Origin: Chitinispirillaceae bacterium
GTDB taxonomy: Bacteria > Fibrobacterota > Chitinivibrionia > Chitinivibrionales > Chitinispirillaceae
Assembly (NCBI GenBank): GCA_016929415.1
Contig: JAFGIW010000136.1
Span: 1 to 47,721, forward strand
DNA: 47,721 bases
Direction of reading: 5' to 3'
Shown here: in pieces, positions 10,976-45,970 of the stretch
Layout of the letters: each line of letters opens with the position of its first letter
Numbering within the stretch: the stretch's first letter is position 1
Program-made: the position numbers and the translations under genes
The notes under the pieces: generated by a model
Database searches by the model: none
What the model was told of the DNA's origin: nothing
The model's input: the letters and a program-made list of their open reading frames with translations, nothing else

Positions 10976-13900
10976 TCAGCCGCCCCGCTTCATGTGTGGA
11001 GAGGGGTCAAGGGGTTCACTCATCACCTTAGTCACCGCCTCCTCCATTTCCGCTTTGTGGTACGGTTTTCTTATCGACGAGTCGAAACCGTGTTCGCGCG
11101 GGTGCGCCATGACGGGGTCGTTGGAATACCCGCTCGATGCGATGATTTTAACGCCGGGCGAACATTTTCTCAATTTTTTGTTCGTCTCTTTGCCGCCCAT
11201 GCCTCCCGGGATAGTGAGATCAAGGATGGCCAGGAGGTATGGTCTGCCTTCATTCTTTGCCTTTGCAAACATTTCGATCGCCTCCTCGCCGCATGCCACC
11301 TTGTCGACTTCATATCCCATGCGGGTGAGTATCAGCGAAGCGACCTCGCGGATATACTTCTCGTCATCCATGATGAGAATCCTTCCATGGCCCCGGTGTT
11401 CGACGGCGGCGGTGTGCTCCCCGGTGACGGCATTATTGGCGGATGCGGGAAGATAAATATGGATAACCGTCCCTTTCCCGAGCCGCGACTCAGCTTCGAT
11501 CAGGCCGTCGTGTCGCTTTATGATGGAGTACGAAACGGCAAGCCCCAGGCCGCTGCCCTTCTGCTTGGTGGTGAAAAACGGATCGAAGATATGGTGAAGA
11601 ATATCGGGCGGGATTCCCGTGCCCTGGTCGCGGATGCTGATGCGAACGTACCTGCCCGGCGCGAGCGTGACGGGAAGCACTGCGTCGGGGGCCGTATTCA
11701 CCGCGGTAACGCTTATGACCCCTCCCCGCGGCATCGCATCGCGGGCGTTGATCACGACGTTGTCGATGACCTGCCCCATCTGGTTTTCATCAATGTCGCA
11801 CGTGAAGAGGTCGGCCGCGATTTCAAAGACCGGTTTGATCGCGGAACCGCTCAGCGCGAACTGGACGGTATCGCGGATAAGGGGGGAAAGCGCGCGCGTC
11901 GTTCTCGCCGGCGCCCCGCCCTTTGCAAAGGTGAGCAGCTGGCCGGTCAGGTTTTTCGCCCTGCCGAACACCGACAACGCCTTGTCGATGAATTCCGCCG
12001 CCGCATCGTTCGCCGCCAGCGTACAGCGGGCAAGGTCGAGATAGCCGAACAGCCCGCCCAGCAGGTTGTTGAAATCGTGGGCGATGCCGCCCGCGAGCAC
12101 GCCGAGCGAATCGAGATGCTCCGCCTTCTGGATCGCTTTTTCCGCCCGCCGTTTTTCGGTCGTGTCCCTGAAAACGAGGACCACGCCGATGATGACGTTC
12201 TCCCGGTCGTGTATCGGCGCCCCGCTGTCGGCGATCACGATTTCGACGCCGTCGCGATTGACAAGAAGCGTATCGTTGGCGAGGTTCACGATCGAGCCGG
12301 TTTTAAGCACCTTGTCAACTGGATTTTCACACGGCCGGCGCGTGCGTTCGTTGATGATGACGAACACGTCGGCAAGCGGCCGCCCTTTCGCTGCGGTGAA
12401 TTCCCACCCCGTGAGCGATTCCGCCACCTTGTTCATGAGCACGATCATGCCCCGCGTGTCGGTGGCGATGACCGCGTCGCCGATGCTGCGGATGGTGACG
12501 AGGAGCCGCTCTTTTTCGTCGACGAGGTCCGCTTCGGCTTTCCTGCGCTCGGTAATGTCCTCGCCGGCGCTCAAGACGCCGGTGATGTTTCCGGCATCAT
12601 CGCGAAGGAGGCTGTTGTGCCAGGCGATATGGCGGATCGTCCCTTGTCTGGTGATAACCGGATTTTCGAAATATTCAAGAGATGCCATCTCTCCGCTGAT
12701 CAATTTTTGAAAGACCGGGTAGACCGTTTCCATCCCCAGCGGAGCGGGAAGGCATGTTTCGAACCACAATTCACCGATCAGTTCCGCTTCTTCGTAGCCG
12801 AGAAGCCGGCACCCTTTGCGGTTGATGAGCGTAATCTGTCCCTGGGCGTCAAGCACGACGATGATCGCCTCGACCGTGTCGAGATAGCGCTGGGAACGAT
12901 GACGCGCCCAGATCAGTTCTTCCATGGCTTTTTTGCGTTCGGTGATGTCGGTTGACAGTATCAGGACCCGGTGCACTTTATCATCCTGCAGTATGGGAAC
13001 GACACGCGCCTTCACCCACTTCCCGTCGCCGATGCCGTGCTCGAATTCCTGGATTGTCCGTGTTTCAACGCAGCGTTCGATATGCTCTTTTGCCGTTGCC
13101 CGGTATTCGGGAGGCAGTACGGCCACGGCGTCCATGCCCCTGATATCTTCCACGGTGAAATTCCCCGCAACGATCCGGTTGATGGTGATGATCCGGAAAT
13201 CGGTATCGATCATGAGAATGATATCCGGTGAATTGACGAACTGCGTTCTGAGAAGCTTCTCGCTCTCCGAAAGCGATGCATACAGTTCGTGTTTTTCCCG
13301 TTCGAAAGCATACAGGCGCCTGAAAAACGACGACGCGCGGTGGCGCTGGAAAAGGGCAAGCAGTACACCCGAAAGAATAATGGACAATATAATGAAAGTA
13401 ATAATGATTAAAAAAAACAGCCGCGCGGCGGCGAACGCCTCCATGGTATCCATTTTAGCGACCATATACCAGCTTGTGCCTGGAATCGGTCTCGTTGCGG
13501 CGAGTACCGGCACGGCCCGGTAATCCATTCCTTCCATCACTCCCGTAAATCCCGACAGCGCCCTGGCTGCGGGCAGGTCGGATTGCGCGAGCGGGAGGCG
13601 AAAACGGAGCGCCGTAGTTTTACGGTGGCGCAGTTCGTTGAGAAAGAGAATCTCGTCGCTTTCTTTCCTGATAAGATATATTTCGGCGCTGCGGCTGGGC
13701 ATGGGCCATGACTGTATGAGCGGGTAGAGGAACCGTTCGGGATCCAAGTCGAGCACGATGGCGCCCGCCGCGGTGGAATCGGCGTCGGAAACGATGGGAA
13801 CGAACAGGGAAAGGTGGATGACGGCGCTGTCCTTGGTCATGTGCAGATCGGACATCGCTACCTCTCCGGATGCAATGGCGCTGTCGAACAGCGCCCGGAG

Positions 13901-17585: not shown

Positions 17586-19379
17586 ATGAGTGGGAGACGA
17601 ATAACGGCTAGTCTGGCGGTAACACTGTTCATGCTTACCGGTATCTTCAATACGGTTTTCGCACTTTCAGAAGGGTATGTGTTAGGTTCCGCATTCAGCG
17701 CGAAGACGACGGAACTTTTCGACAAGGACGGCAACATTATTTTTACCTGGAGCCATACGGTGTCAAGCGGCTATTCATGCTATCTGCTGGAAAACGGAAA
17801 TCTGCTGAGAACCTGCAACCCGTCGGGACTTAAAATCGGACAAGGCGCCGCGCCGGTAAACGGAGTCATCCAGGAGGTTGATCTGGATGGAACTGTTCTC
17901 TGGGCCGATACGATTGCGGATGTGAACCAGTCGCTGCATCACGATTTCAAGCCGATCAAGAAGCCGGACGGAAGTATAAACATACTCGCCGTATCATTTG
18001 TGACAACAACCAAAGAAGAGGCCGTTGCCGCGGGAGTCGATTCGACCCTGTTCGCGTCTTCGGGGCACATGGGAGCGCTTAAATCTTTTCAGGCCGAAAA
18101 GATCATTGAAATCAAACCCGACCGTACAGGTGCGGGAAATTCCCAGATCGTCTGGCAGTGGACCATGCTTGACCATGTGACGCCGACCGACCAGGCATCG
18201 GCGCGCCCCGAACGGTATGCCGGTTTCATCGCGTCTCTCTATTTCACCTCACAGTGGGTCCACCTCAATGGAATCGACTATAATGCGAAAAAAGACCTCA
18301 TTGTCTTCTCTTCGCGTGTGTTCAGCGAAGTGTATGTAATCGACCATAGTACAACCACCGAGCTGGCCAGGGGGAGTACCGGCGGAACCTACGGCAAAGG
18401 GGGGGACATCCTTTACCGCTGGGGCCATCCGTCGAATTATATCGTCCAGTTCAAGTATGATACAACCATCAGAGAAGCGGACACTACCTATAGGAAGGCG
18501 GATACTACCTATATCAAGGCGGATACCACCGTAAATTGGAAAGGTGATACCGTCATAACCAAAGCGGATACCGTTTATACTCCAGCAAAAACCATCATCA
18601 CTCCCGCCGATACTACTATTGTCAAGACAAAAGTTGGTCAGCCGGGCGATCTTGTCAACTGCCTCCACTGCCCCACCTGGATTCCCGAAGGGTACCGCAA
18701 CGCCGGCAACATCATGTTTTTTCACAATAACGACGACGCGAACATGAAGCAGCTCGGTTTTTCGCAGGCCATGGAAATAAATCCGTGGGACGCCGGTGGC
18801 AACCTTCATCCCCTGACCGCCGGTTCGCCGACGGCCCCGCTGCAGCCGACATGGGTATACAATTCCGTCGACAGCATGTACTCGGCGTCGATGAGCAGCG
18901 CGCTCAGGATGAAAAACGGCAATACCCTGGTCCATGAAACCTATCCGGGTGGAAACGGAACCGGAAAAAGCAGCACCATACGTGAGGTTAACCCCGCGGG
19001 TCAAGTAGTTGACAGCGTGCTGACGTTGAAAAAGCCCACCGGGTACAACGCGCCGAAAATAATGTACTATCCCGAGGATTATCCGGGGATTGCGGCGGTG
19101 CTGGCTAAAAAGACACAGCAGGTCGGTCAACGCGAATCCAGTTTCTCATCCATGGCACAGCCCGGCATCCGTTTTATCGCCGGCCGCATCGCATTCTCCC
19201 ATGTCGCAGGAGCGGTGATTTCCGTCTATTCGCTGCAGGGCAGACGCATGGCCATGTTACGGCCTTCAACCGATGCCGCCGACATTCCGACCGCATCGCT
19301 GCCGACGGGAACGTTCCTTGTCAAGATACTCCTGCCCGGCCGTGAATCGATTGACCGCGTGTTTACGGCGATACATTGA
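17586..19379 (+). CDS. secreted arylsulfotransferase-like protein with 7-residue repeats and sorting-type tail (copy 1)
   Basis: This 597-residue protein has a signal peptide (about 1-27) and a six-bladed propeller of the arylsulfotransferase type: KTTELFDKDGNIIFTWSH, SGYSCYLLENGNLL, QSLHHDFKP, LYRWGHPSNY, NAGNIMFFHNN. Conserved histidines of the family (HHDFKP and the HLNGIDYN segment) are present. Characterised relatives move sulfate between phenols, but many distant members are of unknown activity. After the GHPSNY blade there is an unusual insertion of about 56 residues made of DTT-x-x-KA units (18458-18626). The C-terminus (ISVYSLQGRRMAML ... LPTGTFLVKILLPG) is a sorting-type domain. It is followed by a near-identical-order paralogue in tandem. 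Copy 2 has a short unrelated loop where the repeat sits. Confidence 0.85.
   Translation: MSGRRITASLAVTLFMLTGIFNTVFALSEGYVLGSAFSAKTTELFDKDGNIIFTWSHTVSSGYSCYLLENGNLLRTCNPSGLKIGQGAAPVNGVIQEVDLDGTVLWADTIADVNQSLHHDFKPIKKPDGSINILAVSFVTTTKEEAVAAGVDSTLFASSGHMGALKSFQAEKIIEIKPDRTGAGNSQIVWQWTMLDHVTPTDQASARPERYAGFIASLYFTSQWVHLNGIDYNAKKDLIVFSSRVFSEVYVIDHSTTTELARGSTGGTYGKGGDILYRWGHPSNYIVQFKYDTTIREADTTYRKADTTYIKADTTVNWKGDTVITKADTVYTPAKTIITPADTTIVKTKVGQPGDLVNCLHCPTWIPEGYRNAGNIMFFHNNDDANMKQLGFSQAMEINPWDAGGNLHPLTAGSPTAPLQPTWVYNSVDSMYSASMSSALRMKNGNTLVHETYPGGNGTGKSSTIREVNPAGQVVDSVLTLKKPTGYNAPKIMYYPEDYPGIAAVLAKKTQQVGQRESSFSSMAQPGIRFIAGRIAFSHVAGAVISVYSLQGRRMAMLRPSTDAADIPTASLPTGTFLVKILLPGRESIDRVFTAIH
18458..18626 (+). 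repeat. 21-bp (7-residue) degenerate tandem repeat inside the arylsulfotransferase-like gene
   Basis: Units read DTTIREA, DTTYRKA, DTTYIKA, DTTVNWKG, DTVITKA, DTVYTPA..., DTTIVK. At DNA level the core is GATACTACC-TAT-x-x-x-AAGGCG with period 21, interrupted by one 24-bp and one longer unit. The repeat keeps the frame. It sits in a loop between propeller blades and is absent from the paralogue at the same place. Confidence 0.8.
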
Positions 19380-19389
19380 TGCATCTGGT

Positions 19390-19416
19390 CCCGGCCGGGA
19401 CGCGTCCGGCCGTTTT
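19390..19416 (+). terminator. probable factor-independent terminator after copy 1
   Basis: A strong GC stem formed by CGGCCGGGAC and GTCCGGCCG (one bulged G, two-base loop) is followed by TTTTGATGATTTTTC. It starts about 10 bp after the stop codon. This suggests the two arylsulfotransferase-like genes can be transcribed separately. Confidence 0.65.
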
Positions 19417-19608
19417 GATGATTTTTCTTGCGTCGCGACCGGTATATAATGCATATTGTCAGCTTATTATTACCCTTTCGACAAGAGGGGGTACCATACT
19501 GAAGAGGACGTCTGCGGGCAGGGGAATAGTTGATGGCGCTGCATAAGCCGGGGAGAGGGCCGGTCAGCGTACCTGCATCATCAATAATCACCGAGGAGGC
19601 GATATCCT

Positions 19609-21288
19609 ATGTTACGTAAATGTACGTTCATGTGCTTATTCATGGCGGTTCTTTTTTATTCGGGCGCCCTTATGGATGCGGCGGCGATTTCGGAAGGGTA
19701 CATTTTAGCGTCCAATTACAGTGCGAGAACGACGGAACTTTTCGATAGGGACGGGAACATCGTTCACACCTGGAACCATACCGTATCGAGCGGTTATTCA
19801 TGTTATCTGCTCGAAAACGGCAATCTCCTGAGGGGCTGCACGCCAATAAACATTATGAGTTTAGCTCATGTGGATGCCCAGCCGAGTCAGGGTATGATCG
19901 AGGAAGTCGATTCGGCGGGAAATCAGATCTGGTCGGATACACTGGCCGATAAAACTTACATGATGCACCACGATTTTAAACCGATGCCCGACGGGAATAT
20001 TATCGGCGTGCAATTTGTAACCGTAACCAAGGCCGCCGCAGTCAACGCGGGGGTCGATACGTCGGTGTTCTTCAGAATACCCGTTGCGAACAAAAACGAT
20101 AATTTCCAGTCGGAAATGATATTCGTGCTCAAACCCGACAGGAGCGGCGGAAAGAAGCATCAAATAATATGGAAATGGTTTGTTATGGACCATGTCGCAT
20201 CCAAAGACAGTGTCGCGGCACACCCCGAATTATTCGACGGCACTCATCCGACATGGGCGCGATTTCCCAAGCAGTGGTTCCACATCAACGGGATCGATTA
20301 CAATCCGGCTAAAAAACTCATTCTCTTTTCTTCGCGGGTATTCAGTGAAACGTACGTCATAGAGTATAGTGATAGTAGCGAGATTGCCAAAGCGCATGCC
20401 GGGGGAGTATACGGTAAAGGGGGAGATATCCTCTATCGATGGGGCCATCCTTCCAATTATGTCGTTGAGTTTACCGGCCTAAATGATACGCTTATGCAGG
20501 TAAACAAAAAGGATACGCTGATACTCGTCCTGCCGCAGCGAAAAGGGCACGCCGGCGATCTCGTCGACTGCATGCACTGCCCCACCTGGATTCCCGAAGG
20601 ATATCGTAATGCGGGGAATATCATGTTTTATCACAATAATGTCGATCCGAGTATGAGGCAGCTTGGACTTTCACAGGTCATTGAAATAAATCCATGGGAT
20701 GCGGGCGGTACCCTGCTTCCAATGACCTCCGGTTCGCCGACGGCGCCGCTGCCGCCGACGTGGGTGTATAATCCCGTTGACAGCATGTATTCCGCGTCAA
20801 TGAGCACCGCGATACGGATGAGAAACGGCAATACCCTTGTTCACGAAGCTTATCCGGGCGGAAACAAATCGGGAAAGAGCGGCTCTGTCCGCGAAATCGA
20901 TCCCTCGGGACAATTGATCGACACCGTCATCACGCTCAAACAGGCAAGCGGGTACAATCCCCCGAAAGTCATGTATTATCCCCCCGATCATCCCGGCATT
21001 GTGAAACTGCTCGGCCCCGTGCCCGCTGAAGGAAAGGGCGCTTCCATGAGGGGAGCGGCGGCTCGCCGGCCGGCGATTTACTTTCATGCCGGCCGGATCA
21101 ATGTTACAAACATCGCCAATGCCGACGTCGCCCTCTACTCGCTTCAGGGGAAGCGGGTAGCGTTACTGCATGCGCAAAGTGGTAAAGCGAGCATCCCTGC
21201 AGCGCAGATCACTCCCGGGAGCTATCTGGTAAGAGTGAAGATGGCCGGTGGAGGGATGATCAACCGGCTTATCAACATAGAGCGGTAG
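19609..21288 (+). CDS. secreted arylsulfotransferase-like protein with sorting-type tail (copy 2)
   Basis: This 559-residue paralogue of the preceding protein runs parallel along the whole length: YILASNYSARTTELFDRDGNIVHTWNH, SGYSCYLLENGNLLRGC, MMHHDFKPMPDG, ILYRWGHPSNYVVEF, CPTWIPEGYRNAGNIMFYHNN. It has a signal peptide (about 1-27) and the C-terminal domain DVALYSLQGKRVALL ... PGSYLVRVKMAGG. A GAGGAGG ribosome site precedes the ATG. The loop that holds the DTT repeat in copy 1 is here a short segment (NDTLMQVNKKDTLILVLPQ) that still carries two DTL motifs, perhaps the ancestral seed of the repeat. Likely exported to the periphery; the substrate is unknown. Confidence 0.85.
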   Translation: MLRKCTFMCLFMAVLFYSGALMDAAAISEGYILASNYSARTTELFDRDGNIVHTWNHTVSSGYSCYLLENGNLLRGCTPINIMSLAHVDAQPSQGMIEEVDSAGNQIWSDTLADKTYMMHHDFKPMPDGNIIGVQFVTVTKAAAVNAGVDTSVFFRIPVANKNDNFQSEMIFVLKPDRSGGKKHQIIWKWFVMDHVASKDSVAAHPELFDGTHPTWARFPKQWFHINGIDYNPAKKLILFSSRVFSETYVIEYSDSSEIAKAHAGGVYGKGGDILYRWGHPSNYVVEFTGLNDTLMQVNKKDTLILVLPQRKGHAGDLVDCMHCPTWIPEGYRNAGNIMFYHNNVDPSMRQLGLSQVIEINPWDAGGTLLPMTSGSPTAPLPPTWVYNPVDSMYSASMSTAIRMRNGNTLVHEAYPGGNKSGKSGSVREIDPSGQLIDTVITLKQASGYNPPKVMYYPPDHPGIVKLLGPVPAEGKGASMRGAAARRPAIYFHAGRINVTNIANADVALYSLQGKRVALLHAQSGKASIPAAQITPGSYLVRVKMAGGGMINRLINIER

Positions 21289-35112: not shown

Positions 35113-36504
35113 TCACACCCCCAGAAACTCCAGCAGCAGTCTCACCCCGAAGCCCGTGGCGAATTGCGGGACCACGCCGCGTGCAGTGCCTTCGTTGTAA
35201 GCCGTTCCCGCGATGTCGAGATGGGCCCAGGGTGTTTCACCGGCGAATTCCTTGATGAAGGCGGCGCCGGTGATGGAACTCGCGACCCCTTTTTTGAATT
35301 TCGACAGGTTGCGCAGGTCGCCGAGGTCTCCCTTGAGCGATTCGCTGTATTCTTTGTAAAGAGGCAACCGCCAGAGCCGTTCCCCGGTTTTTTCCCCGGC
35401 GGCGAAAAGTTGCAGCGCCAGTTCGTCGTTATTTGAAAAGAGCCCGGCAACCAGGTCTCCCAGGGCGGTGACGATGCCGCCGGTGAGCGTCGCCAGATCG
35501 ACGATGCGGTCGGGGTGGTAGTTCTCCCGGCAATACGCAATGGCATCGGCGAGAATAAGCCTGCCCTCGGCATCGGTGCTCCATATTTCGACCGTTGTAC
35601 CGGAATAGGAGGTGTAAATGTCTCCCGGAAAGAAGGCCCTGCTGCCGATCGCATTATGGACTGCGGGGATCACCCCCACCAGGTTGACGGCGGGTTTGAT
35701 GCGCCTGCAGGCGGCAAAGAGGCCGAGTACGGCGGCGGCGCCCGCCATATCATGGCGCATGGTTTCGATGCTGCCGGTCGGTTTGAGGTTCTGCCCCCCG
35801 CTGTCGAACGTCACCCCTTTACCCACGATTGCCGTTGTACTGTTTCTCCGCCGCCCGCCCCGGTATTCCAGAATGATGAGCGCCGGAGAAGATGCAGAAC
35901 CTCCTCCTACCGCGGTGATAAGATCAAGCTTGTTTCGCCGTAATGCCTGATGGTCAAGTATCGTCACCGAAAGGGTGTTGCCCTGTGTCAGTTTTGTCGC
36001 TTCCCTGGCAAGCTGCGCAGGGGTGACGACCGAGGCGTTCTCATTGACGAGATCGCGGGCGTAGTTGACCGCTTCGCCGATTTGCCGGTATTTGCGCAGT
36101 ATCGCTGGAGAACTGATTCCCCCGATGAGTTCGAGGCTGGAGAGTTGAACCGGCCGCCCGGTTTTATACTTTGAAAAACAGTATGAACCGAGCAGCATTC
36201 CCTCGATGATCGCCTTCTCGATTTCCGGTGCATTGAGCGGCAGGTCGGGAACAACGCAGGCTGCAATGGTCCGCTTAAGTTTCTGAATTGCCTGCGCCGC
36301 CTTTGCGACTGCACTGCGCAAAATGGCGGGGGTGCACTGTTCGGCGGTACCGATGCCGCAGTAAATGAGCGACTTTTTTTCTTCGTAGCGAACGGAGATC
36401 TGGTCAATTCCCCCGGTGAAATCGGGGATTTCAGGAGCGTGGTTTTCAGCGATGAACCGGATGATCGTTGATGCATTCGTATGTCGGGAACATTTTATCC
36501 GCAT
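35113..36504 (-). CDS. leucyl aminopeptidase family protein (peptidase M17)
   Basis: This 463-residue cytosolic metallo-aminopeptidase removes N-terminal residues from peptides. The C-terminal catalytic domain holds the two-zinc centre and active site. Motifs are GKGVTFDSGGQNLKP (Lys, Asp, Lys ligands), MRHDMAGAAAV (Asp) and STDAEGRLILADA (Asp, Glu, catalytic Arg). The last normally reads NTDAEGR, so Asn to Ser is a small departure. The N-terminal macro-like domain is shorter than in E. coli PepA (463 versus 503). With the opp peptide importer in the same window it fits a peptide-scavenging lifestyle. A GAGGAAG site precedes the ATG. Confidence 0.93.
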   Translation of the reverse strand: MRIKCSRHTNASTIIRFIAENHAPEIPDFTGGIDQISVRYEEKKSLIYCGIGTAEQCTPAILRSAVAKAAQAIQKLKRTIAACVVPDLPLNAPEIEKAIIEGMLLGSYCFSKYKTGRPVQLSSLELIGGISSPAILRKYRQIGEAVNYARDLVNENASVVTPAQLAREATKLTQGNTLSVTILDHQALRRNKLDLITAVGGGSASSPALIILEYRGGRRRNSTTAIVGKGVTFDSGGQNLKPTGSIETMRHDMAGAAAVLGLFAACRRIKPAVNLVGVIPAVHNAIGSRAFFPGDIYTSYSGTTVEIWSTDAEGRLILADAIAYCRENYHPDRIVDLATLTGGIVTALGDLVAGLFSNNDELALQLFAAGEKTGERLWRLPLYKEYSESLKGDLGDLRNLSKFKKGVASSITGAAFIKEFAGETPWAHLDIAGTAYNEGTARGVVPQFATGFGVRLLLEFLGV

Positions 36505-36717
36505 GATTCTTCCTCACTCGGTCACTATCAACAGTATAGGGTAGCAATAATAGTGTGAAAATAGCGATATATCTTTTTTGATGCTTTTATCACAACCGCT
36601 CTTTTGCAACAAAATATATTTTTTGCAGGGGAGGGCCAGGGCAACGGGTGTGTATACCGTATCTACTTTCGGCATCGGTCTCCACTAGGTATCACCAGAT
36701 CACGATGGCAGTATAGT

Positions 36718-39700
36718 GTGAAAATTGTTTTCGTTTACCCCCGTTTTGAGAAATTCATGAAAAACAACCCCGATCTCGATGAGGGACTGGTTGAGTATTT
36801 TCTGGGTGATTTCACTACGCCCCCGTCATTGGGCATTCCGATTCTTGCATCGCTTACCCCGCCCGAACACGACATAGTGCTCGTCGACGACAATAACGGC
36901 GATCCGGTGGATTACGACATGGATGCAGACTTGATTGCAATCAACAGCTTCACCCCCCAGGCCACCCGTGCGTTTGCGCTCGCCGACACCTTCCGCGCTC
37001 ATGGGAAAAAGGTGATCATGGGCGGATTTTTTCCCTCCTTTATGCCTGATGAGTGCCTTAAACATGCCGACTCGGTAAATATCGGGGAGGGGGAGCCGAC
37101 TTGGGAAACAATCCTCGCCGATACCGCGACAGGTGTTTTGAAACCGATTTATAAGGGCGGGTGCAGGTTCGATCTTTCGAAAATGAAGATCCCGCGCCGT
37201 GACATTTTCTACAGCAAGAAGAGTTATGACTGGGATGAAGACCTGGTCCAGGTGACGCGCGGCTGCATTTATAACTGTGCCATGTGCGCCATTCCGGCCC
37301 ATATGGGTTCACGCATGCGGTTCCGTCCGGTTGAAGCGGTGGCGCAGGAAGTGGCGCAGCTCAAATATGAGAATGTCTATCTGGCCGACGATACGCTCTT
37401 TTTTCCGCAGCGGAAGATGATCGAGTACGCCAGGGCGCTTTTCGAGGCGCTTGCGCCGCTCGGCAAGAAGTATTTCGTTTCGTCGACCATGGCGCTCAAT
37501 ATCGACGAGTCGTTTCTGGATTGCGCCGCACGCGCGGGGGTCAAGAATTTTTACTGCACGATGAATGTCGATCCGCTCTCGATCAAGGCGCTTGCCGGCG
37601 GGCAGGCCGAACAGCGGCTTCTTTGCGACCTCGTAAAAATGTGCGTGGATCGCGACATCAGGTTCTTCGGTTCGTGCGCGCTCGGCCGCGACTGGGACGA
37701 TACCTCGATCGCCGACCGGATCCTGACGCTCTTTGATAAAGCGGGAATCCATACCTCGGAGTTTTTTCTTTTTACGCCGTATCCCGGTTCCCCCCAGTGG
37801 GACCGGTTCAGGCGGCAGAACCGCATCATCGATTACGACTGGGCGCATTACAACGGCGCGCATGTCATTGCAAAACCCTACGCGATGTCCGTTGAAGATC
37901 TTTACAAACAGTACATCAAGGTGTGGAACGAGTTCTTCCGCAGACAGAAACGGGCCCATGCGGCAAGTCTCGAACCGGCAACCTGGAAAAACGGAAAACG
38001 GTCGGTGGGAAAGCCGCTCGAACGGCGGGGGGTGAGGGGCCAGGCGGTCATCACCGGGATCGGGGTATTGAGCCCGATCGGCAATGATCCTGATGCCGTT
38101 GCCGCATCTCTTGAAAGCGGCACGCACGGTCTCCATCCGATCACCCGGTTCGATGCCTCCCATTTCCGGACCGATCTCGGCGGCGAGATCAGGGGCTTTA
38201 ACCCGCGCGACTCACTGAGTGATGAAGAAATCGCCCGCTATGACGACCGCTATCTGCAGTACGCCATCACTGCGGTCCGCAGGGCGATCGCCGACGCCGG
38301 CCTGCACTTTAACGGAAGTGAAGAACATAGTGACATCGCCCTCGTGCTCGGCACCTGCAACGGGGGGCTGCTCTCCGCGGAAGAGGAGTACAGATGGCTC
38401 CATGGCAAAGGTGAAAAACAGTTTGATGAGAAGATGAATCTTACCGCGCAGTATTATGGCTTCGGCAAGGCAATGGCCCACGTCCTGGGGATTACCGGGG
38501 AGGTCTGGATCGTGACGACCGCATGCTCGTCGACCACCGGCGCAATCGGGCTGGCGCAGCTGCTGATCAACCGGGGCTACTATTCCACCGTGATCGTCGG
38601 GGGATCGGACAGCCTGTGTGTCGCCAATATGTCGGGGTTCAACGGCCTCAAGGCGGTGGCCGAAGAACGCACGGCACCCTTCTCCCTTCCGGTCGGCCTC
38701 AATATCGGCGAGGCGGCCTGTTTCTGGGTGGTGGAGGAGATGGAACAGGCGCTGCTGCGTCACGCGCACTGCAAAGGCGAACTGGCCGGACACGCCACTA
38801 CATGCGACGCCTATCATCCGACATCGCCCGATCCGCGGGGCGACGGTGTTTGCCGGACGCTTGCAGCGGCGCTTGCCGACTGCGGTCTGCCGCTCGATAT
38901 GCTGGGATGCATCAACGCCCACGGGACCGGTACGGAGGCCAACGACCGCGCGGAATCGCGGGGAATCGTCAGGTTCATCGGGGAGACGGCGATACCGGTG
39001 ACCTCCACGAAATCGTTTTTCGGGCACTGCATGGGGTCGGGGGGGATTCTCGAAGCGACCTGCAACCTGCTGGCAATGAACGGCGGATTCATTCCGCCGA
39101 CCCTCAATTTTTCCATACCCCGTCCCGGCTGTACGCTCGATTACGTGCCCAACACTGCACGCAGACGGGATTACAAGGCGTTCGTCTCGGCAAACTATGC
39201 GTTTGGAGGGAATAACGCCGCCGCGGTGATCACCCGGTGGGACACGCCTTTACCTTCGCGAAAAGCCGCCGACGAACGGGTGATGGTCACCGGCGCGGGC
39301 GCGGTCAGTTCACTCGGCGTCACCGTAAACGACCATCGGGAAGCGTTGCAGCGTTGTCACGTCGGGATAGGACCGGTTGCCCGGCTTCAATTGACGAATT
39401 TGACATCACGGCGGGCGGGGCTCGTTCCCCGGTTCCGGCCGGCGGATATCGACCGGCGGCTCGATTGCGGCGGAATGAACACCATCAGCCGTTATGCGAC
39501 GGTAGCGGTGCACGGCGCCCTGGGCAGCGGGAATTTGCGGATACGGCAGAGCACTACCGACAGAATCGGCATCGTGATGGGGGTCTGCAACGGCCCGCCC
39601 GAATCCGACCATATGAACCGTGTATTTTCTTCCGATGATTTCTCGGCGGATATCGCCAATTTTTCAACCATTACCGCCAACTCCACCGCCGGATGGGTCG

Positions 39701-40479
39701 CGGCCTCCCTCGCGCTCAAGGGCATCAACATGACGCTTGCACCCGGACATCATGCCGGTCTGCAATGCTGCGCATATGCGTTCGAAATGCTCCGCGAACG
39801 GCGCGCCGATGCGGTGGTCGCCGCCGCAGCCGACGAACTGTATCCGCAGACCTACCGGAATTATGATTTGATAGGGTTCCTTTACCAGGGCGAAAATGAG
39901 GAACGCTACCTTCTGCATCCTGAAGAACTGAAGAGAAAAGTGATCGGCGAGGGCGCGGGCGCGCTTCTCCTCGAAACGCTCGCTTCGGTGCGCGAGCGCA
40001 AGGCAACCGTGCTGGCGGAACTGCTCGGCTACGGCATGAGCATGGACCTTGAACGGTTCGACGCGCAATGTCTAGGAAGCGACGGGGTGGCGAGGGCGGC
40101 AACCACCGCGCTGGAGCGCAGCGGTCGGGCCCCGGCCGACATTGATCTTGTCGTGTGGGCTCCTCAGGGCAATGTACAGGACCTCAAGGTGCCGGCCGGC
40201 CTGACGCTTATTGACAAAGACCATTTTTCATCGCTCCCGTTCGTCGCAACGACCTTCAATACGGGGTATATCGAATCGGCGTCGGCGCTTCTTACCCTCG
40301 GTGTTTTTCTCACGGGCGCTGCGGCGGGAAGCGGCCTCTGGCCGCAAATGACCGGCCTGCCCGATTTCGACCGGAGGATGCCTGCCGGGACAATAAAAAA
40401 CATACTCGTCGTCGGAAGCAGCGACCTGGGATATTCGTTCGCTCTCGTGCTCGACCGGCAACCGGAGCTTCCCGGGTGA
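36718..40479 (+). CDS. trifunctional fusion: B12-binding radical SAM enzyme - ketosynthase - inactive ketosynthase (CLF-like)
   Basis: This 1253-residue protein from GTG 36718 (MKIVFVYPRF, the usual opening of B12-binding radical SAM proteins; a TTG at 36604 adds 38 unconserved residues). Residues 1 to about 135 are a cobalamin-binding fold (IVLVDDNNGDP, KKVIMGGFFPSFMPDE, VNIGEGEPTWE). About 175-400 is the radical SAM core with Cys183, Cys187 and Cys190 (GCIYNCAMC). A basic linker (about 405-440) leads to a ketosynthase at 442-850. Its triad is complete: Cys603 (TTACSSTTG), His735 (NAHGTGTEAND), Lys765 and His770 (STKSFFGH). A second KS fold at 855-1253 has no catalytic residues; the Cys position (about 1011) reads PGHH. 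This is KS plus chain-length-factor logic. It is first in a six-gene set and its TGA overlaps the GTG of the next gene. I know no described protein of this order. Confidence 0.9.
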   Translation: MKIVFVYPRFEKFMKNNPDLDEGLVEYFLGDFTTPPSLGIPILASLTPPEHDIVLVDDNNGDPVDYDMDADLIAINSFTPQATRAFALADTFRAHGKKVIMGGFFPSFMPDECLKHADSVNIGEGEPTWETILADTATGVLKPIYKGGCRFDLSKMKIPRRDIFYSKKSYDWDEDLVQVTRGCIYNCAMCAIPAHMGSRMRFRPVEAVAQEVAQLKYENVYLADDTLFFPQRKMIEYARALFEALAPLGKKYFVSSTMALNIDESFLDCAARAGVKNFYCTMNVDPLSIKALAGGQAEQRLLCDLVKMCVDRDIRFFGSCALGRDWDDTSIADRILTLFDKAGIHTSEFFLFTPYPGSPQWDRFRRQNRIIDYDWAHYNGAHVIAKPYAMSVEDLYKQYIKVWNEFFRRQKRAHAASLEPATWKNGKRSVGKPLERRGVRGQAVITGIGVLSPIGNDPDAVAASLESGTHGLHPITRFDASHFRTDLGGEIRGFNPRDSLSDEEIARYDDRYLQYAITAVRRAIADAGLHFNGSEEHSDIALVLGTCNGGLLSAEEEYRWLHGKGEKQFDEKMNLTAQYYGFGKAMAHVLGITGEVWIVTTACSSTTGAIGLAQLLINRGYYSTVIVGGSDSLCVANMSGFNGLKAVAEERTAPFSLPVGLNIGEAACFWVVEEMEQALLRHAHCKGELAGHATTCDAYHPTSPDPRGDGVCRTLAAALADCGLPLDMLGCINAHGTGTEANDRAESRGIVRFIGETAIPVTSTKSFFGHCMGSGGILEATCNLLAMNGGFIPPTLNFSIPRPGCTLDYVPNTARRRDYKAFVSANYAFGGNNAAAVITRWDTPLPSRKAADERVMVTGAGAVSSLGVTVNDHREALQRCHVGIGPVARLQLTNLTSRRAGLVPRFRPADIDRRLDCGGMNTISRYATVAVHGALGSGNLRIRQSTTDRIGIVMGVCNGPPESDHMNRVFSSDDFSADIANFSTITANSTAGWVAASLALKGINMTLAPGHHAGLQCCAYAFEMLRERRADAVVAAAADELYPQTYRNYDLIGFLYQGENEERYLLHPEELKRKVIGEGAGALLLETLASVRERKATVLAELLGYGMSMDLERFDAQCLGSDGVARAATTALERSGRAPADIDLVVWAPQGNVQDLKVPAGLTLIDKDHFSSLPFVATTFNTGYIESASALLTLGVFLTGAAAGSGLWPQMTGLPDFDRRMPAGTIKNILVVGSSDLGYSFALVLDRQPELPG

Positions 40480-42800
40480 AACGTCGCGGCGTCGTCATAA
40501 CCGGCATGGGGGTCGTTTGCAGTGGAGGAAAAAGCTGCAGCGAATTTTCCCGTACACTCATACAGGGAACGTCGGCGCTTTCACTGCTGAACGATCCGCG
40601 GGTGGCACATTACGGCACGATCCATGCCGGCCTGGTCATCGATGATTCCGGTGCGGATACGCCCTTTACCGATGAAGATCGTTACGTCCGGTTCGCGGAC
40701 CGGGCCGTGGGGGAGGCAATCGCTCAGGCGGGAATCGATTTTGATGGCTGCGGCCCCCGTTCGGGGTTCTTTCTGGGGACCTGCTCGGGACCGATGCTGA
40801 CTATAGAAAAAACCTACGGGATCGACGGCGAACGCCGACCCCTCGATCGCATGCAATTGCGGAAAAAACAGTACTATCGTGCAGCGCGACTGCTTGCGGG
40901 TAATTATCACGTGGGAGGCCCGGTCTACACCGTCACGACGGCATGTTCCGCCTTTTGCGCCGCACTTGCCACCGCGGCCGACCTGATCCGTGCAGGGCTG
41001 CTCGAAGCGGCATTGGTGGCCGGGGCCGATTCATTTAGCCTGACGACACTTGCCGGATTTATCGGTCTTAAAGCCGTCAGCAATTCCCCGTGCGCCCCGT
41101 TTTCCCGGCCGATCGGTCTCAATCTCGGCGAAGGCGCTGCCGCTGTGGTGCTGGAAGCGTTCGACCGGGCACTGGTACGCGCCGCGCCGGTGATCGCCAC
41201 GATTGAAGGGTATGGTCTGTCAAACGATGCGTTTCACAGCAGCACACCCGATCCTACGGGAAAGGGGGCTGCCGCAGCGATGGCCGGTGCGCTTGGTGAT
41301 GCGCAGGTTTCCACGAGTGATGTCTCTTACATCAATGCCCATGGCACCGGTACCGAGGCGAACGATAAAGCCGAAACGAAAGCGATCAAGCGTCTCTTTG
41401 GTGACGGGGAGGGTATAACACCGCCGGTCAGCTCGACCAAGGGGGTAACCGGCCACTGCCTGGGGGCTGCGGGAGCAATAGAAACAATCGCAGCCCTGCT
41501 CTGTGCGCAGCGGGGAATCCATCCCCCCACGGTGAATTTTTCAGGCAGGCGTGATGGATGCACGCTTGATTATATCGGTGAGAAGAACCGACCATGGCAG
41601 ACCGGAGCGCGTTGGCTTAAAAACAATTTCGCTTTTGGCGGCAATAACGCAAGTGTCGTCATTAAAAACGGCCGTCCGGTTGCTCATGAGGCCGGAAAGA
41701 ACAGATGTATCGACGAGCCGGTGGTCCTCTCAGCGGCAGGTTTAATCTCTGCGGCGGGGATTGCTCCATGCGACCTCACCGAAGCGTATTTCAATACCGT
41801 ATCAGCGCTTCGGGAACGCGAGGTTCCGTTCCATGGAACGTGGCAGGTCCGCGAAGTTTCTTCGTTTGGCGGTACCGATATCGACCGTCGATTGTCGCTG
41901 CGCGGCATGGATCGTGCGGGAATGCTCGCCACTGCGGCGGCGGCGCTTGCTCTTAAAAGCGGCCGGATTTCCGAACGGACGGGATCCCGCCCTGCAATCG
42001 GTTTTATCATGAACATAGCGCAGGGCTCCTCGTGGGCTGAACGCGAGCATATCGGACGGTTGCAGAAAAACCGCTATCATATCGATCAGATCACTACCTT
42101 TCCCTATATCGTTCCCAATGCAGTTACCGGTACGGTGGCGCGCACGTTGTCGTTGACCGGGTACAACAGCACCTTTTGCAACGGTCCCGGCGCCGGTCTG
42201 TTGGGTCTTGTAGCCTCATGGGCCGCAGTGAAAAACGGCCATGTCGCGGCGCTTCTGTGCGGTGCGGTGGACGACCTGACCGAAGAGGGGCTTTACGATT
42301 GCGTTGTGTCGGAACTTAAGGGAGACCGTCGCCCGGCGCTGGGTGAAGGGGCGGTGACGCTGCTCCTCGAACCACGTTCCCATGCAGTGCGGAGGTGTGC
42401 CGACCATCTCGGCACGATCGTCGACTGTGCGTTTGTCGATGACCATGCGGGAGAGGGGGGCGGAAAGGTGCAGTCAGCCGTGGCATCGCTTCTGGAGGCC
42501 AACAGTATCGACGATACTGAGCCGATTGCGATCAGCGTGTCCGGTTGTCAGCATGAGCCGTTCTCTGCGATAAAAAGTCGCTTCACCGGCATTGAGCGGG
42601 TTGACCAGACCCCGATGACCGGTTGGATGCCCGCGAGTCAGCCCCTTTTTGATATGGTTGCGGCATTGGTGCAAAGGGGGGTTGGCGGAAAAAAGTGCGT
42701 AAAGTATATTTTAATAATTTTATGCTCACCACCGGGAAAGACGATCATTGTTTTACTGGAAAAGAACGTTACACGAAAGAGCGTAGTATCGTATGACTGA
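40476..42800 (+). CDS. ketosynthase - inactive ketosynthase (KS-CLF) fusion protein
   Basis: This 774-residue protein has a FabF-type ketosynthase at 1 to about 405, with Cys157 (TTACSAFCAAL), His289 (NAHGTGTEAND), Lys322 and His327 (STKGVTGH). A second KS fold covers about 416-765 with the catalytic Cys replaced (FCNGPGAG, Pro571 at the Cys position) and both His lost (SGCQHEPF, VDQTPMTGW). A covalent KS-CLF pair is known from PfaC of PUFA synthases, but there it is followed by dehydratase domains, which are missing. In ordinary type II systems the two subunits are separate. It starts at GTG in a GTGA overlap with the preceding gene and overlaps the acyl carrier protein gene by 8 bp, so all three should be made in fixed proportion. 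Confidence 0.9.
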   Translation: MKRRGVVITGMGVVCSGGKSCSEFSRTLIQGTSALSLLNDPRVAHYGTIHAGLVIDDSGADTPFTDEDRYVRFADRAVGEAIAQAGIDFDGCGPRSGFFLGTCSGPMLTIEKTYGIDGERRPLDRMQLRKKQYYRAARLLAGNYHVGGPVYTVTTACSAFCAALATAADLIRAGLLEAALVAGADSFSLTTLAGFIGLKAVSNSPCAPFSRPIGLNLGEGAAAVVLEAFDRALVRAAPVIATIEGYGLSNDAFHSSTPDPTGKGAAAAMAGALGDAQVSTSDVSYINAHGTGTEANDKAETKAIKRLFGDGEGITPPVSSTKGVTGHCLGAAGAIETIAALLCAQRGIHPPTVNFSGRRDGCTLDYIGEKNRPWQTGARWLKNNFAFGGNNASVVIKNGRPVAHEAGKNRCIDEPVVLSAAGLISAAGIAPCDLTEAYFNTVSALREREVPFHGTWQVREVSSFGGTDIDRRLSLRGMDRAGMLATAAAALALKSGRISERTGSRPAIGFIMNIAQGSSWAEREHIGRLQKNRYHIDQITTFPYIVPNAVTGTVARTLSLTGYNSTFCNGPGAGLLGLVASWAAVKNGHVAALLCGAVDDLTEEGLYDCVVSELKGDRRPALGEGAVTLLLEPRSHAVRRCADHLGTIVDCAFVDDHAGEGGGKVQSAVASLLEANSIDDTEPIAISVSGCQHEPFSAIKSRFTGIERVDQTPMTGWMPASQPLFDMVAALVQRGVGGKKCVKYILIILCSPPGKTIIVLLEKNVTRKSVVSYD

Positions 42801-43080
42801 AGCAATACGGGTACTGATAGAGCAGCGCGCTGCGATAATCAACAGGTTTAAGGAGGAGCTTATCCACCGGCTCAATCTTCCTTACGAACCGCAGGATCTG
42901 CACGAGGACGTGTCGCTGCTCGGAGCGGGTTTAGGTCTCGATTCTCTTGATGCGCTGGAAATCGTTCTTTGCATCGAGAACTGTTTCGGGATTAAAATTC
43001 CCGATCAGAACACGTCCATCCTTCGTTCGATCAACACTATTGTCGATTATGTCCTCACCGAGCAAGAGAAGAGAGGATAA
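42793..43080 (+). CDS. acyl carrier protein
   Basis: At 95 residues it has the usual length. The phosphopantetheine attachment serine is Ser51 in GLGLDSLDALEIV, followed by the helix III region FGIKIPDQNTSILRSINTIVDYV. It is probably the dedicated carrier for the two KS-CLF proteins, because it lies inside the same overlapping set (8 bp into the preceding gene, 4 bp before the next). The core GLGLDSLDAL differs from the DSL-DTVE form of the housekeeping fatty acid AcpP, supporting a specialised role. Confidence 0.93.
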   Translation: MTEAIRVLIEQRAAIINRFKEELIHRLNLPYEPQDLHEDVSLLGAGLGLDSLDALEIVLCIENCFGIKIPDQNTSILRSINTIVDYVLTEQEKRG

Positions 43081-43084
43081 ACGG

Positions 43085-44185
43085 ATGAGAGTATCTCCGC
43101 TGAAGAACCGTTTTTTGCAGAATGACGCCTCATTTTCCGAACGGTACGGCACTGAGATCGTTACCCGGGTACGCGACGTGCGCACAGAGTATGATGCCAT
43201 ACGTCAAACGGTCGGAGTTACCGATTTTTCATTCATGCAGAAATTCCGTTTCCCCGAGGAGTCGGGACTTGATCATCTCGACGACATGATGGCGGGGAAT
43301 GTCGCCAAGGTCCGTTTCGGCCGGGTATTGCATACGTTTCTCCCCGACGACAAGGGCATGCTCCTTGCCGATTGTTATATCGCCAACAACGACGACGAGT
43401 TTATCGTGCTCTGTGAAAGCATTGCGGACGATGCGGCCATACGACAGCGTTTTCTTGAAAAGGACGGACACGGCGGTGAAGATTTTACCGAGTCGCACAT
43501 CGTGATCGGCATCGACGGCTACAAGGCGTGGGAGGTCGCGCGGCAGCTCTTCGGTGCCGATATTCTCGGATTACCCTATCTTTCGATCGAACGGTATCTT
43601 TTCAACGACATCCCGGTTCGTCTGTTGCGCTGCGGCAAGACTTCGGAATTCGGGTATCTTATCATGGCGCCGCTGGAGGTTGCCGATGCGTTGTTCGACA
43701 AGGTGTTGACACTTGCACAAAGTTTCGGGGGCTTTCTCTGCGGAACCGACATCCACAACGATCTGCGGCTGGAGGGAAGGTTTTTCAATATTTTCGCCGA
43801 GGGCAGGCAGGTAGGCGACCCGCTCGTGCTGGGGCTGCAATGGATGATCGATTTTGAAAAAGAGCGGTTTCCCGGCAGAGACGAACTGGCAGGGCGCCGT
43901 GCGGCCGGATTGCGGAAGAAAATTATCGGCATTCAGGCGCCGGATTCCGTTATGTTCGAAACGGAAAAAACGCTTTTTGACGGCGATACAGCGGTGGGAA
44001 CCGTTAAAGCCACCTGCTTTTCATACCTGCTCAATGCCTCCCTCGGGTTGGCGCTATTCGAGAACGAAGTCGCATACGCCGGGTTGCCCTTTCATTACGG
44101 ATCGCCGTCCGGCCCGGCAATACGGACTATTTCGATGCCGCCGATCATGCCGAAAAGCCTGACGGTAAAACTGGATGAGTTGTAG
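43085..44185 (+). CDS. GcvT/YgfZ-fold folate-binding (aminomethyltransferase-like) protein
   Basis: This 366-residue protein opens like glycine-cleavage T-proteins (YDAIRQTVGVTDFSFMQKFRF ... HLDDMMAGNVAKVRFGRVLHTFLPDDKGMLLADCYIANNDDEFIVL). Further family segments follow: GYKAWEVARQLFG, LRCGKTSEFGYLIMAP, GTDIHNDLRLEGRF, and the C-terminal barrel with GTVKATCFSYLLNASLGLALF. T-proteins move a one-carbon unit to tetrahydrofolate; relatives act in demethylation, methyl transfer or Fe-S assembly. It is not near gcvH or gcvP but sits inside an acyl-assembly operon. I suggest, as inference, a one-carbon reaction on the ACP-bound product or in partnership with the B12 radical SAM domain. It starts at ATG 43085 after AGAGGA; the longer frame from 42947 lies within the carrier protein gene. 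Confidence 0.82.
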   Translation: MRVSPLKNRFLQNDASFSERYGTEIVTRVRDVRTEYDAIRQTVGVTDFSFMQKFRFPEESGLDHLDDMMAGNVAKVRFGRVLHTFLPDDKGMLLADCYIANNDDEFIVLCESIADDAAIRQRFLEKDGHGGEDFTESHIVIGIDGYKAWEVARQLFGADILGLPYLSIERYLFNDIPVRLLRCGKTSEFGYLIMAPLEVADALFDKVLTLAQSFGGFLCGTDIHNDLRLEGRFFNIFAEGRQVGDPLVLGLQWMIDFEKERFPGRDELAGRRAAGLRKKIIGIQAPDSVMFETEKTLFDGDTAVGTVKATCFSYLLNASLGLALFENEVAYAGLPFHYGSPSGPAIRTISMPPIMPKSLTVKLDEL

Positions 44186-44285: not shown

Positions 44286-45026
44286 ATGGAACAATTTACC
44301 CGGAAAACGGTCATTGTTACGGGGGGCTCCCGTGGTATCGGCAAGGCAATTGTCACGGCGTTCGCCGCGGAGGGCGCTTCCGTCTATTTTACCTACCATC
44401 ATCACAACGAGGCCGCCGACATCGTGGCAAAGGAAACGGGCGCGCACCCGATTCGTTGTGAACAATCCGATGAGCGGGCAATTGCCGCCGCGGTCGATGA
44501 AGTCGCCGCAACAAGCGGATCAATTGACATTCTGGTCAACAATGCCGGGGCCGTCGCCGATCAGTTTCTGATGATGATGCCCCGTGAGGCCTGGACTAAA
44601 GTGATCGACACCAATATCGGCGGCGCCTTCCTGTGGACCAAGGCCGTGTCGCGCTGCATGTTGAATGCGAAACAGGGCGCGATTGTCAATATCGCTTCCG
44701 TTTCTGGGCTGGTGGGAATCGCCGGGCAGGCGAACTACGCCGCTTCAAAGGGCGCAATCATCTCTTTTTCGCGTTCCTGTGCGGCGGAACTCGGTCCGAA
44801 GGGAATCCGGGTAAATACCGTCGTACCCGGCTTTATCGATACCGATATGACCGCAAAAATGCCCCGATTCATCAAGCGACAGAATCTCGAACGGATTTTA
44901 CTTCACCGCTTCGGTACAGCCGCCGAGGTAGCCGGTGTCGTAACATTCCTTGCTTCAAGTAAAGCTTCCTATATAATAGGGCAGACCATTGTCGTCGATG
45001 GAGGTTTGATGGGAACGGTCGTTTGA
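44286..45026 (+). CDS. 3-oxoacyl-ACP reductase (FabG-type short-chain dehydrogenase)
   Basis: This 246-residue SDR has the NADPH loop TGGSRGIGKAI, NNAG motif (ILVNNAGAVAD), catalytic Ser in NIASVSGLVG, Tyr151 and Lys155 (YAASKGA), and the FabG-like PGFIDTDMT and IVVDGG ends. It should reduce the 3-keto group made by the ketosynthases. It is the only reductive step visible, so the product chain may stay hydroxylated unless other enzymes act from elsewhere. ATG 44286 gives the usual N-terminus; ATG 44250 is in frame but adds a basic extension. It overlaps fabD through TGATG. Confidence 0.93.
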   Translation: MEQFTRKTVIVTGGSRGIGKAIVTAFAAEGASVYFTYHHHNEAADIVAKETGAHPIRCEQSDERAIAAAVDEVAATSGSIDILVNNAGAVADQFLMMMPREAWTKVIDTNIGGAFLWTKAVSRCMLNAKQGAIVNIASVSGLVGIAGQANYAASKGAIISFSRSCAAELGPKGIRVNTVVPGFIDTDMTAKMPRFIKRQNLERILLHRFGTAAEVAGVVTFLASSKASYIIGQTIVVDGGLMGTVV

Positions 45027-45970
45027 TGGGGAAAAGAGCATTTCTCTTTCCGGGTCAGGGATCTCAGGAAATCGGCATGGGGAGCGACCTGATCAATGAC
45101 GACTCCTTCACCCGGGCGCTTTTCACCGCCGCATCCGACCTCGTGCATGAAGATCTCGAAAAACTCTGTCTGCACGGGCCGGCTCGACGATTGATGAATG
45201 CCCGTTTTTTACAACCGGCGCTGGTGGCGGTTTGCCTGGGGTATTGGCATCGTCTGGTTGAAAACGGCATTCAGCCGGATGTCGTTCTGGGTCATTCGCT
45301 GGGGGAGATCACCTCGCTGGCTGCGGCAGGAATCGTTACACCGGAAGTATGCCTGCAGATTGCAGCCAAACGCGGTGAATTGATGGATATTGTCGCTCAA
45401 AATTGCCGGGGCGGGATGCTGGCAATTCTGTTTGTACCGCCTGCAACGGTTGAACGATTAATCGCCGAAATCGGGGAGGAAAAGCGCCTTGTCCTTGCGA
45501 ATGATAATGCTACAGAACAGGTGGTAATCTCCGGCGAGTCCCTGTTGCTCGATCGAATCGCGTCACGCATCACCCGTGAAAAACTTGGAAAATGCCGCAG
45601 AGTAGAGGTCGTCGGACCATGGCATAGCCCATTCATGGATGAATCACGTGATATTTTTGAAGAATGGGTTGCTTCAATCCCGTTTTTACCGCCGAAACTG
45701 CCGGTTATTTTTAATGCCACGGCAGCTCCGGAATACGATACGTCGAAAATCAAGCAACTGGTATCCTGGCAATTGACCTGCCCGGTATTCTGGCGCAGCT
45801 GTATGGAGACCCTCAAGACAATGGGTGTGGACATACTCTATGAAATCGGACCCCAACGTATTTTGTCAGGGCTTGCACGGATAAACGGTTTTAAAAAGGG
45901 GACGATCATTCACAATATAAACAGTCTTCGCGGTATCGATCGGGTTGCGGCATATACATCTGCCGACTGA
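45026..45970 (+). CDS. malonyl-CoA:ACP transacylase (FabD-type)
   Basis: This 314-residue acyltransferase loads malonyl units onto the carrier protein. The oxyanion loop is LFPGQGSQ, the nucleophile Ser91 is in GHSLGE, and the catalytic His lies in the region PWHSPFM (a GPWHSPFM form of the usual GAFHSPLM). The start ATG overlaps the ketoreductase stop (TGATG). Its presence means the operon carries its own extender-unit supply. It is the last gene of the set; 348 bp of non-coding sequence follow. Confidence 0.94.
   Translation: MGKRAFLFPGQGSQEIGMGSDLINDDSFTRALFTAASDLVHEDLEKLCLHGPARRLMNARFLQPALVAVCLGYWHRLVENGIQPDVVLGHSLGEITSLAAAGIVTPEVCLQIAAKRGELMDIVAQNCRGGMLAILFVPPATVERLIAEIGEEKRLVLANDNATEQVVISGESLLLDRIASRITREKLGKCRRVEVVGPWHSPFMDESRDIFEEWVASIPFLPPKLPVIFNATAAPEYDTSKIKQLVSWQLTCPVFWRSCMETLKTMGVDILYEIGPQRILSGLARINGFKKGTIIHNINSLRGIDRVAAYTSAD

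Follow-up and report, generated by a model that had tools for sequence, protein, structure and literature searches.

The window analysed here is a stretch of 47,721 nucleotides from a Chitinispirillaceae bacterium (phylum Fibrobacterota; assembly GCA_016929415.1, contig JAFGIW010000136.1). It holds a gene that joins a B12-type radical S-adenosylmethionine (SAM) enzyme to a ketosynthase (KS) and a chain-length factor (CLF). The gene and its domains are:

36718..40479, + strand: fusion gene of B12-type radical SAM, KS and CLF, 1253 aa (from the open reading frame, Pfam, relatives and alignment)
36718..37167, + strand: N-terminal Rossmann (B12-binding-like) domain, residues 1-150 (from PF02310 below cut-off, the AlphaFold2 model and loop entropy)
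37168..37956, + strand: radical SAM core, residues 151-413, with CxxxCxxC at 183/187/190
38032..39252, + strand: ketosynthase domain, residues 439-845, FabF-like, with Cys603, His735, Lys765 and His770
39265..40479, + strand: CLF-like KS fold, residues 850-1253, which lacks the catalytic residues of the KS

As originally predicted, this is a single uninterrupted frame, which starts at a GTG, stays open for 1253 codons and stops at 40477-40479. A TTG upstream, at 36604, shares the frame, which is open throughout; the listed relatives usually have about 1253 aa. Pfam matches of the window protein were above the cut-off for PF00109 (2.4e-38) and PF02801 (1e-28), and slightly under it for PF04055 (29.3 bits, cut-off 29.5) and the B12-binding family PF02310 (28.5 bits, cut-off 32.1). 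The KS part matched PRK07314 at 395.8 bits, over the cut-off of 387, and no dehydratase domain was found among the Pfam matches of the protein. Structure prediction of the chain was done with AlphaFold2, and residues 1-1200 gave three confidently packed modules (predicted template modelling score, pTM, 0.89). The Rossmann fold of this model aligned with MgmA, CysS, OxsB and TsrM in a VIA-align comparison that covered the chains ranked by Foldseek.

Relatives were sought among the 7989 candidates sharing most words with the protein, and 363 were found at E≤1e-3. The best 120, one of which is the window's own protein, were 60-100% identical at 92-100% coverage and 1168-1317 aa long. The domain architecture was shared throughout: PF04055, PF00109 and PF02801 were present together in all 120, and PF02310 in 103. 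Nineteen loci with named records carry the fusion, two of them cut by a contig end (L009 and L026; genomes, loci, contigs and proteins are numbered here with G, L, C and P). They come from Fibrobacterota (Chitinispirillaceae, Chitinivibrionales, Fibrobacter sp., Chitinispirillum), Omnitrophota, Verrucomicrobiota including Victivallales, and one unplaced bacterium. Within the window's phylum, 17 of 167 genomes have the fusion at 54-100% identity, the copy in G022 being cut by the contig end. Matches at E≤1e-100 were seen in 19 genomes of the phylum; of the two without the fusion, G029 has radical SAM and KS as adjacent separate genes, and G038 has the radical SAM alone. Elsewhere, the fusion was found in 2/285 Omnitrophota genomes (G392 and G400, both already among the named loci) and 2/387 Verrucomicrobiota genomes (G395, and G989, cut at the start). 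The layout is common to at least three bacterial phyla. Because the fusion is rare outside Fibrobacterota, yet about 61% identical between phyla, the sequences suggest its lateral transfer from phylum to phylum.

The window's assembly is fragmented (227 contigs), and nothing else was found that would favour an assembly or frameshift artefact at the join. We give this explanation practically no weight: the layout was identical in the 120 listed relatives and the 17 phylum genomes, 135/135 aligned rows were intact, and a chimeric join was rejected because independent genomes, at 54-81% identity, have this layout too. Nor do the relatives always keep the parts as separate genes, as the fused genomes of the phylum show, though unfused sisters of both halves exist.

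Conservation was assessed on 135 distinct sequences of the fusion, which were drawn from the best relatives and from 17 loci (137 minus two duplicates, with the distant relatives outside the sample). The radical SAM Cys183/187/190 and the KS Cys603/His735/Lys765/His770 were invariant in 135/135, in line with the original prediction of a radical SAM core behind a cobalamin-binding-type domain and of a KS with a complete Cys-His-His-Lys set. The loops at the strand ends of the Rossmann domain, where cobalamin would sit, were among the most conserved stretches of the protein, with an entropy of 0.21-0.62 against a domain mean of 0.85. From the CxxxCxxC motif and the Rossmann domain, the fusion is predicted to belong to class B (cobalamin-dependent) radical SAM. 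The CLF was the least constrained part (entropy 1.52), and none of the KS set was kept in it, as had been claimed for the second KS fold. The Cys position is taken by His1011 (HMMER alignment to FabF) or Pro1009 (KS-vs-CLF alignment); in the latter alignment, Pro1149 pairs with His735, and Lys765 and His770 have no aligned partner. Column 1011, where the alignment is ambiguous by two residues, held Pro in 88 rows, His in 42, Leu in three, and Gln and Val in one each. In the actinorhodin CLF, Gln replaces the catalytic Cys; such a Gln was thus seen in 1/135 rows, at a point where the alignment is uncertain.

The fusion is the first gene of a tight operon, in which neighbours overlap or lie at most 64 nt apart:

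40476..42800, + strand: second KS-CLF fusion, 774 aa, with TTACS 154, NAHGTG 287, STKG 320 and TGHCLG 325; its start overlaps the fusion-gene end by 4 nt
42793..43080, + strand: acyl carrier protein (ACP), 95 aa, Ser51 in LDSLD
43085..44185, + strand: GcvT-like protein, 366 aa, with Asp96, Glu188 and Arg228 aligned to T-protein residues
44250..45026, + strand: FabG-type ketoreductase (short-chain dehydrogenase/reductase)
45023..45970, + strand: FabD-type malonyl transferase, GHSLG

Neighbours were counted across loci by tblastn, and the recurring order was fusion-(KS-CLF2)-ACP-GcvT-(4HBT thioesterase)-FabG-(FabD). ACP and GcvT lie behind the fusion, on its own strand, in the window, in 11 other Fibrobacterota genomes (L039-L043, L047, L048, L050-L053), and in five loci of other phyla (L013, L015, L016, L021, L027). 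They are on the opposite strand to the fusion in L025, and for L017 and L045 GcvT is on a different contig of the same genome. Both were absent from the stretch examined in L009, L010, L012, L014, L026, L044 and L049, mostly where the contig ends.

A close GcvT (E≤1e-100) was present in 15/17 fusion genomes of the phylum and in 0/150 of its other genomes, where one weak 30% match was seen (G156). The other two fusion genomes have contigs that stop inside the fusion (G022) or within the gene after it (G039). The Fisher value for this pairing, 1.6e-19, takes no account of how the genomes are related, and we do not treat it as a probability. Outside the phylum, GcvT was found in 8/10 fusion genomes searched. 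The protein scores with the GcvT and dimethylglycine dehydrogenase families, and Asp96, Glu188 and Arg228 were kept in 35/35 loci, some of them duplicate records (aligned to 1woo and 1yx2). In T-proteins, these positions line the folate site. The close pairing suggests that a fatty-acid-like pathway includes a folate step; we know of no description of such a step.

Both halves of the fusion have unfused sisters. When the radical SAM piece was used as query, stand-alone proteins of ~440 aa were found at 52-64% identity, besides fragments of the fusion. The few named ones are from Deltaproteobacteria, Myxococcota or Polyangia. In searches for their genomic context, these sisters had no match in viral_contigs, three plasmids gave only relatives of 30-33% identity, and among 391 relatives none above 48% identity was found outside the fusions. 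A radical SAM tree was built from 161/171 candidates, the other 10 having too little coverage. In it, one clade (0.927) unites 43 fusion proteins with 11 database proteins that are shorter; of these 11, five continue into the KS, and six end before it and may be fragments or stand-alone. The clade is adjoined by 47 proteins and P0193, mostly ~440 aa, at a node of 0.999. One of the 47 sisters, P0134 (605 aa), likewise extends as far as a KS, while the branch of P0193 falls in between (0.813); besides a single fusion, the tree may reflect a second fusion event or later loss.

Among the best 120 rows of the KS-only search, no stand-alone KS of full length exceeded 42% identity, with KS-CLF proteins above 712 aa outside its length limits; the closer rows that were checked were pieces matching the fusion. 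Two Verrucomicrobiota genomes have an unfused KS-CLF. In G1003 it has 813 aa (KS 58%, CLF 42%) and is followed by ACP, GcvT and FabG, and in G1025 it has 798 aa (KS 46%, CLF 39%), with ACP-GcvT ~7.6 kb away on the other strand. No close radical SAM of the fusion kind was found in the assembly of G1003 (best 26%) or G1025 (none), for both of which completeness is not given. In the KS-CLF tree, rooted on the second KS-CLFs, 37/37 fusions fall into one clade (0.939), to which the two unfused KS-CLFs are sister (0.90). The KS-CLF/ACP/GcvT core exists without radical SAM. Since both halves have unfused sisters and two Verrucomicrobiota genomes keep this core without a radical SAM, the radical SAM domain looks like a tailoring unit added to it by fusion. 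Near an unfused KS-CLF operon (L096), a group II intron reverse transcriptase (4175-5476) and a DruA-like defence gene (11589-12173) were also seen.

The idea of GcvT as an obligate radical SAM partner was weakened by G1003 and G1025. These genomes also bear on a second role for GcvT, that of an IBA57/YgfZ-type factor which matures the fused enzyme's iron-sulfur cluster, instead of a one-carbon enzyme of the pathway. GcvT-fold proteins of this kind serve radical SAM enzymes, and the tight pairing within the phylum would fit such a role. We nevertheless find it improbable, as GcvT is retained beside KS-CLFs that have no radical SAM, its scores are with GcvT and dimethylglycine dehydrogenase, and the T-protein Asp/Glu/Arg positions are conserved throughout.

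Further genes around the operon came from three Fibrobacterota loci (L018-L020, judged to be the same records as L051, L050 and L052, with one representative per gene scanned against Pfam). There, the fusion lies directly behind an aryl-polyene-type set: a glycosyltransferase family 2 (GT2)-acyltransferase, an aromatic ammonia-lyase, MMPL, KS and a ketoreductase. An adenosine monophosphate (AMP) ligase was seen in L018 and L019; the contig of L020 begins later. Behind the operon follow an FMN-reductase/SCP2 protein, a FabA-like dehydratase and a PlsC-type acyltransferase. The first of these is an FMN-reductase domain fused to an SCP2 lipid-transfer domain, beside the other two (L018:16866-17960). 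The window's genome has the same trio of acyltransferase, FabA-like and FMN-reductase-SCP2 genes on contig C89. We read it as the dehydratase and acyl transfer step shared by the pathway. In L097 (Verrucomicrobiota, unfused KS-CLF), GT2, MMPL, LolA and acyltransferase genes are nearby.

An aryl starter is unlikely in the window's genome, because no PF00221 match to an aromatic ammonia-lyase was found there (90.8% complete; 5/14 control genomes positive), and it was dropped as unsupported for the window's pathway. In this the window differs from aryl polyene (APE/flexirubin) clusters, and from its relatives in L018-L020, which do have an ammonia-lyase. APE clusters are not known to contain radical SAM or GcvT.

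The KS pair probably assembles a chain of fatty-acid type on a carrier protein. Our preferred reading, to which we give a probability of about 0.55, is that the radical SAM module would tailor this same ACP-bound chain in place, while the fused KS-CLF lengthens it on the operon's ACP. FabD would load malonyl onto ACP, the KS with its CLF partner would condense, FabG would reduce, and the FabA-like dehydratase, whose gene adjoins the operon in several genomes and is found on C89 in the window's, would dehydrate. The scan of the operon genes showed no separate enoyl reductase, so the chain would remain unsaturated. The radical SAM domain, as a tailoring unit joined to an older KS-CLF/ACP/GcvT/FabG core, would act on the tethered chain. 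Radical C-methylation is the first guess for its chemistry, the likeliest single candidate and itself somewhat short of an even chance. GcvT would transfer a one-carbon unit, in either direction, between folate and the ACP-bound chain or its starter, and the PlsC-type acyltransferase would hand the product to a lipid acceptor. CysS and TokK, two cobalamin radical SAM methylases, have the same Rossmann and radical SAM architecture and, according to their PDB titles, were crystallised with pantetheinylated substrates.

The original prediction of on-the-spot chain modification is upheld in part: the domain content, the operon partners, the conservation and the invariant residues are established, and the chemistry is conjectural. 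Against methylation weighs the closest solved fold to the radical SAM module, which is AprD4 (6fd2), a radical dehydratase. By analogy, the module might use radical chemistry without cobalamin to dehydrate or deoxygenate an ACP-bound chain that carries a hydroxyl group, replacing or supplementing the dehydratase. AprD4 is not known to use cobalamin. It is, however, a stand-alone 1,2-diol dehydratase, 17% identical to the fusion, whose substrate is the sugar paromamine; function cannot be read from a shared fold. NF033070, the family of AprD4-type dehydratases (cut-off 500 bits), was not among the 25 families listed, of 35, for the fusion protein. With a FabA-like dehydratase already at hand, and Rossmann loops more conserved than expected of a vestigial domain, we hold AprD4-like chemistry to be unlikely.

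Among known systems, the closest in gene content are the type II fatty acid synthesis clusters of Kuenenia, which, in the available parts of the source, have FabF paralogues without active-site residues together with radical SAM genes, and synteny in Desulfotalea (Rattray et al. 2009, PMC2649909). This agrees with the earlier statement that radical SAM genes lie near FabF genes in ladderane-type loci. In Kuenenia stuttgartiensis, kuste3603-3608 are listed as ACP, FabZ, FabF, non-canonical FabF, phytoene desaturase and SAM radical enzyme (PMC4790861, in part). Both there and in Desulfotalea, radical SAM, FabF, a FabF without catalytic residues and ACP are clustered, as in the window. They are separate genes, however, with a phytoene-desaturase-like gene that is absent from the window operon and, in the passages available, no GcvT named; this comparison is of gene content, not of Kuenenia sequences. 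When expressed in E. coli, kuste3603-3608 reportedly gave no ladderanes.

Ring formation, in which the module would close C-C bonds on a polyene chain as proposed for anammox ladderane lipids, we consider quite unlikely for the fusion. The fusion scores 45.9 bits against the cut-off of 360 of TIGR04072, the curated ladderane-type B12/radical SAM model, and its operon has no phytoene-desaturase-like gene. Desulfotalea has such clusters, yet ladderanes were not found there (PMC2649909). A study of the Cariaco Basin, likewise available in part, lists 'ladderane' clusters of unknown function in the same phyla (PMC9902471).

Phytoene-desaturase-like genes adjoin other radical SAM paralogues (L029, L055), and the window's genome and its relatives hold unfused paralogues beside KS or amine-oxidase genes (L028, L029, L055). 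One cluster of the window's genome (L028, G000:C178:1-7560) has radical SAM, FabG, FabA-like, KS, a weaker second KS and ACP, with an aminotransferase on the opposite strand. In L055 (7483-10281, G037:C21), a CrtI-like amine oxidase is fused to a radical SAM of the same subfamily (932 aa), in a cluster that also has FabG, two KS genes and a FabA-like gene. G034, G036 and G021 have open frames of 926-968 aa in the corresponding positions, which suggests further amine oxidase-radical SAM fusions.

In PUFA (polyunsaturated fatty acid) synthases of the PfaC type, KS and CLF also share a single chain. Unlike these, the fusion has no dehydratase domain that was found, and its N terminus is a radical SAM. 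We place it with type II fatty acid and polyketide synthase systems carrying radical SAM. The claim that a fusion of all three parts was undescribed held: no description of radical SAM with KS-CLF was found in the literature searched, most subscription journals being outside that search, nor in the available parts of PMC2649909, PMC13142503, PMC9902471, PMC9821293, PMC7472256 and PMC9714029.

Other genes were noted near the fusion. A divergent M17 leucyl aminopeptidase lies upstream of it (35113-36504), and in the same place in L009, L010, L011, L022 and L023. About 270 nt upstream of the fusion in G021 is a MetH-like protein of 819 aa with homocysteine S-methyltransferase, pterin-binding and B12 domains (L049:6841-9300). 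In two Verrucomicrobiota, a GNAT domain joined to a CobD/HisC-like pyridoxal phosphate (PLP) enzyme is near the operon (L016:17641-19401, by Pfam and NCBIfam; L025:4348-6114, assigned by 73% identity). An alpha-oxoamine synthase, and with it a sphingolipid-type release, was considered and dropped, as this GNAT-PLP fusion beside L016 matched CobD/HisC best and the class I/II PLP genes beside L028 and L055 matched alanine/tyrosine aminotransferases best. Two adjacent arylsulfotransferase-like (ASST) genes are at 17586-21288 of the window.

A bolder form of the preferred in-place tailoring is doubtful but worth stating. The fusion may be a radical elongase, in which each KS-CLF condensation could be followed, with the chain still on ACP, by radical C-C bond formation, and a glycine-cleavage-type folate enzyme would exchange one-carbon units with the same ACP. 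The product would be a branched or ring-bearing membrane lipid, as yet unseen, in Fibrobacterota, Omnitrophota and Verrucomicrobiota. Since 2009, radical SAM genes near FabF have been suspected of acting on ACP-bound chains in ladderane-type loci, and these clusters are hard to test. Here a single polypeptide, with a small set of recurring partners, contains both the radical enzyme and the elongating KS-CLF, so that one protein and one ACP suffice to ask whether the radical enzyme acts on a growing acyl-ACP.

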